NCBI GenBank assembly: GCA_963969365.1
Contig: OZ017749.1
Coordinates: 2,666,001 to 2,730,000 of the forward strand
DNA length: 64,000 nt
Direction: 5' to 3'
Source: Asterochloris sp. CNOR1
Taxonomy: Eukaryota; Chlorophyta; Trebouxiophyceae; Trebouxiales; Trebouxiaceae
A model generated the notes under the pieces. It did not search any database. It was given only the letters and a program-made list of their open reading frames with translations, and was not told the origin of the DNA. Shown here piece by piece: positions 1-64,000 of the stretch. The number at the start of each line of letters is the position of its first letter. Position 1 is the stretch's first letter. The position numbers were made by a program, and so were the translations under genes.

Positions 1-234
1 ATTGTGAGCTCTTGCTGAACACTCCTGAGAAGAGGCTGCTCCCCAGAGCGGCAGCGTCACAATCCGCTTGTCACTTGTGCTGATGTTGTCCCTCAGTTGC
101 CATGAGCTGCAGGGTGCAGTGGTTGCAGTGCAATGAGCAGTTCGTGCGGCGCTACTAGGCAGCCAGAACACCTCACCCCTGCAGAGCCTGGCCCCTGCAG
201 AGCCACAATATCCAGCTGTCAACCTTGAGCAGCC

Positions 235-3200
235 ATGCCAACAGGTTGGCCAGCCACCCATTTGCAAAACCTGCAGGACCGCAACGAGACTCTCTTCTAC
301 CACCTGCTGGTGGAACACTTTGTGGACATGTGTCGCATAATCTATACCCCCACAGTGGGCTGGGCCTGCCTGAACTACCACCGCCTGTACCGGCGTCCCC
401 GCGGCATGTACTTCTCAGCGGCAGACAAGGGCGAGATGGTGGGTTTGTCCAACAAGTGCCTGGCCAGAGTCCATTCGTGAGCCACTGCACAAGCCTGCGC
501 TCCCATCAGGCATGCATGTCAGCTACATACAAGGGCGAGATGATATGTCTTTTCAGCAAGTGCCTGGTCAGCGTCCTATTATGAGCCGTGTGCAAGGTTG
601 ATGCCAGCAGCTGACAAGGGTGAGATTGGGGCTCTGGCCAGCAGATGGGTCTGTCCAGCGTATTGTAAACTGTCCTGTCTTCAGCTAATGTCAGCGACAA
701 CCTGACAGAAGTGGCCCCTGCCCTGCCACCTTCTAGCCTGCTGCGTCTGGCTTTGCAAGGTCTGAGCTACGTACAATATTTAGTTTTCAGGTGTCAAGCA
801 CATCATGGGTACCCCTATCATTTGCACTTGCTGTCCCCTGCGCACCGGTCTGGGATTGACAGCGCGGTGCATGCAATTCTCCCAATGCCAGCTGTGTTGC
901 AGACAGGGCCATACCACAAAGCTGGCATGCCCACAGCGTGGCTGGGCAATGGCAGCGCCGCCACCATCGTTGGCCTGTGCCTCTGCTTGACTGCCATGGT
1001 CCGGATCTAGCATGCCAGGTCAAGGTCGCCTCTGTCAGGACTGCCAGCCCCTCAAGCCTGTGCTCGACCACTTGTGGTGCAGGCAGCCATGATTTGGAAC
1101 TGGCACGCCAATGATGTGGATGCCATTGTGGTCACAGATGGCAGCAGGATACTGGGGCTGGGCGACCTGGGGGTAAATGGCCTGGGCATTTCTGTGGGTG
1201 AGGCCTGCCAAATTGTCAGAGGCCTGCCCTCAGGAGCATGGCTGCAAGTGGGCTTGTCACGCTGTGTACCGGGGGACCGCAGGGTTGGAGCTGGGCTCTG
1301 CCTGCCTGATGCAATCCAACAGCAGCCTCACCTATGATCACCATCACCTTAATTCGGTGTGCATGGTAGAGCCGCCAATTATTCCATGCAGTTGGTGACA
1401 TTGACTCATATGCCAAACCATGTGCCCCTGTTCATGCAGCATCTGGCCCTCTGTGACTGCTCAAGCACTAGAGCCGACCTTGTCCCTGATTACCTCTGCA
1501 GGCAAGCTGGATTTGTATGTGGGCGCTGCAGGGTTCCACCCTAGAAAGGTGTTGCCCTGTGTCCTCGACGTGGGCACCAACAATGAGCAGGTGGGCATGC
1601 CCGCCTGCCAGCCTGCACCGCCTGGAGTGCTGGGTTCCCCGACATTCCTCCCGCGGCAAGCTGCACTCATTGGGGTGCCACCTGTTCTGTGTGCTGCTCC
1701 CCATGTGCTCAAGCCTTACGTGGCAGCTTGAGGAGGCCTGCAAATATATGTCTGCCACATACTCTGCAGCTGCTGCTATTTGCTGACCGCCTGGTCGGCG
1801 CCTGCAGCTGAGGAAGGACCCAATGTACATGGGGTTGGACCAGGCCAGGCTGGAAGGGGACGAGTACTATCAGGTGGGCGCTGCTGCAGGTCTACCAGTG
1901 CAGGGACTCGTGGGGATGCCTGCCCTTGCCTGCCCAACACCTGACTCGGAGTCCAGGGCCTGCCTGGCTCCTGCACTGTGACGTGTCGACCAGCACAGGC
2001 ACTCATGGTCAACACCCTGTAGTGGTAGCAGAATGGACCCAACAGTGAACGCAGTGGGCTGCCAGGACCCCGCTGCAAGCCATCACCGCTGTGGCAATGC
2101 AGTGTTGGGCCTGTTCCTGCTGCCATGCAGCTCCTGCAGCTACTGTGCCAGATCAGACTCTGCGTCCAGTAAGGGGGCTGCTGGTGCAAAGTTGAGCCTT
2201 TTAAACTGAGCACTGCTGTGTGCCTGTGGGTGGGCCCTGGCAGCCTTCAGTTCAGTCATGCTATCACATGCTGATGGTTGGTGCGGCTGCCCTGCAGATT
2301 GTGGAGGCGTTCATTGCAGCTGTGTGAGGGCGCTGATCCATTCAATCATGACGTGGTAAGCTAGACATCTAATGCTACTTCTGGCTGCCCTGCAGATTGT
2401 AGATGAATTCATGTCAGCTGTGTCAGCCAGGTGGCCTCATGCGGTGATCCAGTTTGAGGACTTTCAGCTGAAGCACGCCCACCCTCTCCTGCAGCGCTAC
2501 AGACATCACCACCTCATGTGGAACGATGACATCCAGGTGAAGCCTGAGATACCTTGAAACAATGGACACCATGACACGCTCCGTCAGGGCTGGGAAGCGC
2601 TGAGCTTCCTGCAACAGTGGTTGCAAGTTGGCATCGCACCAAGTCATAATTTCATGACACAGCAGCTGACCATGACAATCGTCTGCGGCCACAGGCCTGC
2701 CTGGACACTGCCTGGCGCGCATGACTTCAACTGTCGCGCTTACCACCCACTGCAGGGCATGGCTGCTCCAGCCCTGCATCAACTGCGTGCATACAGCTTA
2801 CCACCGTCCGTAGAGTGCAAGTGTCCCCTGCATGACATGGCAGCTTGAGCCCTGACCTGCACATCCCTACAGTCGACATTTTTGTGTGGCATGTGTTGTC
2901 CCCCACTCACATATGCCAACTCCAATCCTGGCAGATCATCACTTCTTATCTGCAGTGCGCTGCATGATGGATGCCTCAGTGAAGCTGCAAATTTTGCCCC
3001 TGCAGGGGACGGCAGCCACTGCCCTGGCTGGGATCTATGGGGCACTGACAGTGCAGGGCAAGCCCTTGCACACCATCACGCAGCAGCAAATTGTGGTCAT
3101 TGGGGCGGGCAGCGCCGGCATGGGCGTCACCTACATGATTGCCCAGGCCATGGTCAAGCATGTAAGCTTTGGCAGCGATATTCCCTGCAATGGATCCCTT

Positions 3201-62800: not shown

Positions 62801-64000
62801 AAACGTCACCAGGACATTGGAGGGCCCCCCTGCACAGCAGTAAAACCTTGCAGACCTGAGCACACCACAGCCGTTGTTGGTCAGCAGCACCTTGAGAAAG
62901 CCTTTGCTCTTTGCACAGGACTGCTCACGAGAGCAGGCTGCTGCAAGTTTTTAGGAGATTCCAGTCCCAGGGTTTGTGGCACTGCTGCTGTGCTCTTCAA
63001 GCAGCTACCCTTGAAGCCCCTCAATGAGGCTCAAAGATGCCTCCACCACTGCCATCACCCCCAATGCAAGTTGGCCCTTATCTGGTTGCCTGGGCGCCTT
63101 CCTGGCCACTGCCAACCACGGCCTCCTGGCTACCCATCTAGGACAGTGTAGGTGTACTGCAGCTGGCACAACATAGTGGTCCTCACTAATGAGCACTGCC
63201 CCTGGGCTGCTCACGTTGGAGGAGTGCGTGTGCGTGTGCATTGTATGCAGCACAACCCACTGTATGTCACTACCGCTGCTGCCCCTCATCTTACACAGTC
63301 CAGCGTAAGCGAGTGCTGGCCCCTGCCTTGGAGGTCAAGATATTAGCTGCAAACCTTGATGGACGAGGTGCACTGTGCACAATTCCATGTGAATTACTAC
63401 CGCCGCTCCTCAACTGACTCACCACTGTGCTTGCCAGAAACCCTAACCTCCTCACCTTGGTGGAGTACATAAACTTGTCATCCTCCTCTTTGGTTTGCAC
63501 CTTCCCCAGCTCTCCCTCCACAGTGTTAATGACAGGGCCGCTGGGGAACACTGGCTCTGCCTTCACACCATTGGCCTGCTCCGCCTTGACCCCTGCAGTT
63601 GCGCCGGCAGCTCCTGCAGCCGTCGCAGCCGCCGCCGCCCTTGCAGCCACAGCTGCGGCGGCCACAGCCTTTGCCTGCACCGTGGGAGTATCACTTTTAT
63701 TATGAGCTGTGTACAAAAGACATTGGCAGGCGCCCTTGCTACCTGCGCAGCCACAGCAGCTGCTACCATAGCCGTGGCCTGCACATGCCCCTTGTCGGTT
63801 TGTTGAGAGGCCAGTGCCTTGTATAGGCATGTAGCTTGGTTGCAGCTGTTGTTTATCCCAGCTCTGGACACCCCAAGCACACACCTAGAACAGCGTACCT
63901 GTGCGGCAGCAGCTGCAGCCTCTGCGTCCTCCAGCTCCTTGGGCTTGACCCACCGGCTCTCCTACAGCAGCAGGCAGGGGCGTTGCTGTCATGCAGAATG
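56808..64000 (-). CDS. PRP40: Pre-mRNA-processing factor PRP40, FF-domain protein (N-terminus beyond window)
   Basis: U1 snRNP-associated factor bridging 5' splice site, branch-point proteins and the polymerase tail. Exons in coding order: 63961-63899 ([19 protein letters not shown], the end of a WW region), 63674-63456 (Ala-rich, then [11 protein letters not shown]), 62769 to about 62530 (FF1: [30 protein letters not shown]), 62124-62030 ([28 protein letters not shown]), 61586-61440 ([18 protein letters not shown]), 61070-60967 ([18 protein letters not shown]), 60459-60315 ([20 protein letters not shown]), 60005-59878 ([18 protein letters not shown]), 59442-59314 ([22 protein letters not shown]), 58828-58648 ([23 protein letters not shown]), 58062-57866 ([19 protein letters not shown], then a Lys/Asp/Arg-rich [16 protein letters not shown] tail), 57383-57232 ([22 protein letters not shown]) and a provisional last exon 56892-56808 ([22 protein letters not shown], stop). 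The repeated FF pattern with charged linkers is diagnostic. The last junction does not fit in phase, so a small exon is probably missed. Confidence 0.93.
58486..58610 (-). repeat. Two decayed copies of PRP40 exon 58828-58648 3' edge
   Basis: On the + strand GTGCA(A/C/T)AGCG starts at 58491, 58561 and 58633 (spacings 70 and 72 bp). The intact edge continues CCTTGAAGGAGGGCTCAGAC; the copy at 58486-58540 continues CCTTGGAGGAGGGGTCAGAC and CAGCTCC; the middle copy is weaker. Confidence 0.85.
60217..60256 (-). repeat. Decayed copy of PRP40 exon 60459-60315 3' edge with donor
   Basis: + strand GCACCCGCCAG starts at 60217 and 60311, 94 bp apart; both continue to CTTGA(C/T)GAAGCCC. On the sense strand the real edge reads FIKPKMRWR at a GGGTGC donor; the copy reads FVKSKMALA at GGGTGC, so the donor motif is retained. 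Confidence 0.9.

Follow-up and report, generated by a model that had tools for sequence, protein, structure and literature searches.

Decayed tandem copies of exon edges in the introns of the green alga Asterochloris sp. CNOR1 look like relics of small duplications placed regardless of exon borders

Introns of Asterochloris sp. CNOR1 carry decayed direct copies of the edges of the exons that flank them, together with the adjoining splice site. These copies are best read, with a probability of roughly 85%, as fossils of small tandem duplications, at offsets mostly of 60-200 bp, that were placed regardless of exon borders. The phenomenon appears to be ordinary duplication on a small scale, unusually visible here and with surprisingly few recent copies.

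The window, meaning the whole stretch of DNA under analysis, comprises 64,000 nt of contig OZ017749.1 (2666001-2730000) from assembly GCA_963969365.1, a genome of 56.4 Mb in 21 contigs. Two further sequences, A (C1:1.0-1.1 Mb) and B (C2:0.5-0.6 Mb), were added, giving 264 kb in all. Gene models for the three sequences were built ab initio with a self-trained HMM gene finder, and single borders may be wrong. An initial parameter set that yielded more than 2000 introns per 264 kb was taken as over-splitting and dropped; the final model converged on 629 introns, with a predicted donor consensus of CAG|GTGAGC and an acceptor consensus of CYTGCAG|G. The window holds 12 predicted genes. Seven of their proteins were run against Pfam and all seven matched, the families being malic enzyme, epoxide hydrolase, GH43, PRA-CH/PRA-PH with rhodanese, NUDIX, HSP20 and FF. 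For one window protein, the top organism-named relatives among the matches listed came from Trebouxia and other green algae.

The PRA-CH/PRA-PH gene has two further features. Its predicted protein (35510-39474, plus strand, 516 aa) places a rhodanese domain ahead of PRA-CH and PRA-PH in Pfam. The model may merge two genes, because its relatives among the matches listed are shorter (∼280-460 aa), cover about half of it and show no rhodanese domain there. A predicted intron of the gene (38915-39378) contains a match to the H/ACA snoRNA family snoR83 of Rfam (39225-39356, plus strand), at 40.1 bits against a cut-off of 40.

A banded Smith-Waterman search over offsets of 10-1000 bp (score at least 85) recovered 200 decayed direct repeats in the 264 kb, against a mean of about 8 in far bands at 5, 10 and 20 kb, which keep the same composition as the near band. 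The near-range direct pairs numbered 56 in the window, 48 in A and 96 in B, and each far band gave 1-5 per sequence. Per 100 kb, B was twice as rich in pairs as A (96 versus 48). A first alignment scoring (+5/-4 with weak gaps) was abandoned after its near-range hits proved few and very long. In a blastn self-comparison of all three sequences, direct pairs clustered at 50-500 bp, with 25, 16 and 50 pairs closer than 750 bp at 34 bits or more in the window, A and B, respectively. No inverted pair within 5 kb reached 34 bits in any of the three; at 30 bits, run on the window only, a single inverted pair appeared at 300-400 bp. Pairs less than 50 bp apart were absent from the blastn output and some were detected by banded Smith-Waterman; the silence of blastn at this range is a property of its self-comparison. 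At a score of at least 90, 98 of 170 pairs had offsets of 60-200 bp (35 lay below and 37 above).

Direct orientation and short range are what small tandem duplication entails, and both were found. The ratio of aligned length to offset had a median of 0.99 for pairs below an identity of 0.70 and of 0.19-0.58 in the classes at or above 0.70, a trend to which decay and the score threshold contribute. Units that abut are proven for few pairs.

Exon edges were compared directly with their own introns, using 60 exonic nucleotides that excluded the 3 nt nearest the junction and requiring a score of at least 75. In this comparison 46 of 842 edges matched, where 1.45 were expected from other introns, and the control against non-adjacent introns of the same gene gave 3 matches in 4049. 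A copy of this kind is present in 45 of the 488 introns that could be tested in the three sequences. Exon interiors, 63-123 nt from the junction, matched in 6 of 499 cases, whereas the edges of those exons did so in 39 of 499. When the set was restricted to introns whose two splice sites scored no lower than the median and whose two exons were at least 60 nt long, the counts were 11 of 200 for edges versus 1 of 868 for the control with non-adjacent introns. Within the window, a score of at least 85 gave 14 junction-spanning families whose copy lies in their own intron, and a score of at least 100 gave 10; the 14 are spread over 8 of the 12 predicted genes by hand count. The stricter test on exonic bases alone still yielded 11 introns with an exon-edge copy, in 6 genes (genes also assigned by hand). 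The recurrence of exon edges in the adjoining intron, first noticed in the earlier note, is therefore real. The features of the window are collected in Table 1.

Table 1. Exon-edge copies and related arrays in the 64,000-nt window (window coordinates; percentages are identities)
Span	Strand	Feature	Copies	Remarks
415..643	+	malic-enzyme exon 3' edge with donor, 415-483	intronic, 519-587 (77%) and 605-643 (77%)	Pfam PF00390/PF03949; intron 439-902, no other match reported in genome search
2285..2426	+	malic-enzyme exon 5' edge with acceptor	2285-2328 and 2383-2426 (84%)	upstream copy modelled as a predicted 24-nt exon, 2298-2321
17679..17875	-	exon 5' edge with acceptor, 17679-17722	intronic, 17832-17875 (84%)	
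26489..26878	+	array of almost three ∼140-bp units	last unit holds acceptor and exon start; earlier units intronic	genome search reports no other match
29236..29445	+	∼108-bp tandem duplication over exon and intron edges	72%, nearly whole unit aligned	
34008..34361	-	exon 3' part recurring in next intron	34008-34087 versus 34280-34361 (87%)	two weaker copies share the intron
34440..34752	-	exon 5' edge with acceptor, 34440-34494	intronic, 34606-34663 (81%) and 34705-34752 (88%)	genome search of intron, self and neighbouring exon only
40114..40356	-	essentially intronic array, starting at an exon border	offsets 63 and 188	no other genome match reported
49028..49140	-	exon 5' edge with acceptor, 49028-49074	intronic, 49094-49140 (83%)	acceptor of copy CTGCAC
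50824..51056	-	∼93-bp unit of exon 5' edge and intron	recurs upstream in intron (68%)	
58460..58678	-	FF-domain protein exon 3' edge with donor, 58602-58678	intronic, 58460-58536 (78%)	genome search of intron, self and neighbouring exon only
60197..60345	-	FF-domain protein exon 3' edge with donor, 60290-60345	intronic, 60197-60252 (77%)	

The finer layout described in the earlier note fared less evenly. Its figure of one to four copies per edge comes down mostly to one (41 edges), with 6 edges having two and 2 having three. Progressive decay with distance was not borne out: the nearest copy was the better one at only 5 of 8 multi-copy edges, and at 34440..34752 (minus strand) the farther copy is the better preserved (88% versus 81%). 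By construction, the copies of 3' edges fall downstream of the edge and those of 5' edges upstream.

The noncoding DNA of the three sequences is unusual in composition, with CTGCAG 14-fold and GCATGC 6-fold over the zero-order expectation. The CTGCAG excess is what lends plausibility to an artefact of such CTGCAG/GCATGC-rich DNA; the far-offset, other-intron and same-gene controls, which have the same composition, nevertheless stay near zero, and the chance that composition explains the matches is negligible. An equally negligible chance attaches to a dispersed repeat or introner family. Recurrence in many genes would fit such a family, but the far-offset bands are almost empty and five copy-bearing introns, one of them holding only an array, had no reported match elsewhere in the 56-Mb genome. 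The genome search misses weak copies, as it reported the copy in only 2 of 4 introns with a known exon-edge copy.

Whether exon edges were sought out or hit at random was judged from the classes of the 200 pairs (score at least 85), each compared with the mean of 200 circular shifts. Pairs joining a junction to a partner in its own intron numbered 51 (30 donor, 21 acceptor) versus 23.1 after shifting, and at a score of 100 they made up 42 of 125 pairs versus 17.1. Both copies lay across junctions in 22 pairs (14.1 shifted), within introns in 65 (58.4) and within exons in 15 (21.4); exon-intron pairs without a junction numbered 24 (31.9), and pairs of other kinds 22 (41.0). Only 1 of the 200 pairs fell between genes, where the circular shift predicts 10.0 and the simulated intergenic:intron ratio about 7-11; annotated intergenic DNA amounts to only 19.9 kb and may be mostly UTR and promoter. 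This shortfall weighs against the main reading.

The junction excess over circular shifts and the near absence of intergenic pairs favor a rival process that would act on exon edges, in connection with splicing or transcription, and copy junctions by preference. The circular shift was judged misleading as a sole null, because it moves aligned spans and not duplicated units. A simulation was therefore set beside it, in which random tandem units were laid down, all single-junction units were tolerated, exons were constrained and copies decayed; it omits wholly exonic and multi-junction units and keeps detections off the junction apart. With constraint set at three levels, and with two unit ranges and two scores, the simulated junction:intron ratio was 0.96-1.42, and 1.17-1.42 with constrained exons. 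The observed families stood at 47:43 at score 85 and at 38:21 (1.8) at score 100, the latter above the simulated range; this comparison does not take in the other kinds of family (67 of 157 and 41 of 100, respectively). Counted as pairs, the ratios were 51:65 and 42:33. Random units thus give a junction share similar to that observed at score 85, so that a process specific to exon edges is not needed, and the 65 pairs with both copies intronic and 15 with both exonic also speak against one. Targeting is accordingly considered unlikely, even with the 38:21 ratio in its favor. The excess over circular shifts would instead reflect unit length and a constrained exon end that stays recognizable. 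Detection probabilities indicate that the expected junction:intron ratio would rise with older ages, and some selection against junction copies is therefore possible.

The earlier note pointed to a published route of intron gain, in which introns are born by tandem duplication of AGGT-containing exonic DNA. Duplications of this type are described from other organisms in PMC3443670 and PMC4974935, which also report a potato event that duplicates a 3' splice site in a gene with an 83-bp intronic duplication. The copies in the alga are alike in being tandem duplications of exon-intron structure; they differ from the AGGT route in that they lengthen existing introns and in that register similarity between donor and acceptor was not found. 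Mean in-register identities of donor and acceptor contexts were 0.262 and 0.254, at the level of permuted values (0.255 and 0.254), and none of 447 introns reached an in-register identity of 0.6. Intron birth by AGGT duplication is thus very improbable as the source of the pattern, although it is possible that such gains are too old to detect.

The stranded copies behave as drifting sequence. Identity to the functional exon was 0.75, 0.80 and 0.70 at codon positions 1, 2 and 3, and 0.75 in the exonic part versus 0.72 in the intronic part, as expected for a constrained exon compared with a drifting copy. This supports the proposal that duplications spanning a splice junction leave the outer copy free to decay neutrally. 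Splice dinucleotides were kept in 31 of 51 stranded copies, where 30.0 were expected. Donors were kept in 15 of 30 (17.9 expected) and acceptors in 16 of 21 (12.0 expected), somewhat more than expected for the latter, perhaps through the choices of the gene finder. This average rate of retention gives no indication of selection on the decoy splice sites that the earlier note had suggested. It also weighs against the copies being real alternative or duplicated exons, as does the model position of the partner copy, which across the 51 junction pairs is 90% or more intronic. Exonic status is favored by 21 families in which both copies span predicted junctions, the 24-nt exon at 2298-2321 being an example; as a general account it is considered very unlikely.

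Over 75 pairs, the transition/transversion ratio was 1.01, with rates of 0.131 for C>T, 0.135 for T>C, 0.130 for A>G and 0.097 for G>A. Repeat-induced point mutation was set aside, as C>T was not commoner than T>C. C>T at CpG (28 of 133) had roughly double the frequency seen at other C (75 of 799), a hint of CpG methylation.

Growth fell on the intron in 51 cases and on the exon in 11; exon-exon offsets were multiples of 3 in 10 of 15. The suggestion that the copies lengthen introns is upheld, with a median of 417 for introns with a copy (n = 45) versus 231.5 for those without (n = 460). Once 110 bp are subtracted, the median of the copy-bearing introns is 307 and the difference from the others is not significant (p = 0.24).

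Young copies are scarce. With young defined as an identity of at least 0.85 over at least 60% of the unit, among pairs of offset 50-300, a constant birth rate predicts about 28 young pairs among 83 intronic and junction pairs, and 2 were seen. None of 38 intronic pairs was young versus 13.7 expected (P 1.1e-6, or 3.7e-7 with more indels), and 2 of 45 junction pairs were young versus 14.2 (P 8.1e-5, or 5.5e-5 with more indels). At an identity of at least 0.9 over at least 30 nt, there were 0 intronic pairs versus 9.6 expected and 2 junction pairs versus 9.4. Taking every class and offset together, an identity of 0.90 was reached by 3 of 129 pairs with at least 40 aligned nt, including one exon-exon pair. 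A loose age fit places most events at 0.2 or more substitutions per site per copy. The deficit is quoted from identity and coverage and not from this normalized-score fit, which overrates arrays of more than two copies.

Removal of young copies can be ruled out as the cause by reasoning, because each old copy must itself have passed through a young stage. Three accounts are left: that the birth rate has dropped, that the assembly collapsed identical copies, or that the original copies were modelled wrongly. Of these the drop in birth rate is held likely. The claim that such duplications are frequent applies to the past, and the record looks like that of a past wave and not of a current habit.

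Under the preferred reading, small tandem duplications would have struck gene sequence irrespective of exon borders, at a rate that was probably far higher in the past than now. Where a unit covered a donor or acceptor, the gene models suggest that splicing kept the site adjoining the intact exon; the second copy of the exon edge, with its splice site and intron edge, would have been left in a longer intron to drift. The copies presumably started as abutting tandem units and, judging from the literature, may have been made when staggered breaks or paired nicks were rejoined by error-prone end joining. According to Schimmel et al. 2021 (PMC8355091) and PMC5730883, small tandem duplications are the commonest of the short (<100 bp) insertions found in the human genome, and they come about via end joining at staggered breaks; work on rice and Arabidopsis is also cited there. 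The copies in the alga resemble these in being direct and local. They differ from those of the two papers in that they are old, many have offsets above 100 bp and their breakpoints have decayed too far for signatures such as microhomology or fill-in to be readable, and the end-joining mechanism may apply to them by analogy. Introners (PMC9860276) likewise involve recurrent events in introns, whereas the genome search of five introns found no dispersed family here and the reported matches are to the neighboring exon. Among the titles and abstract openings listed in a literature search, none described the stranded-copy pattern in an alga.

These results point to one way in which introns grow, through duplications made harmless by splicing and still visible in 45 of the 488 testable introns. 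They also carry a warning for annotation, where a decayed exon edge with its splice site may be mistaken for an exon. As a built-in clock of the duplication rate, the copies suggest that this rate has fallen. Tentatively, a past wave, since subsided, could have left thousands of neutrally decaying, datable copies in the introns of this alga, and an ancestral change in break repair or in the source of breaks could have switched it on and off.
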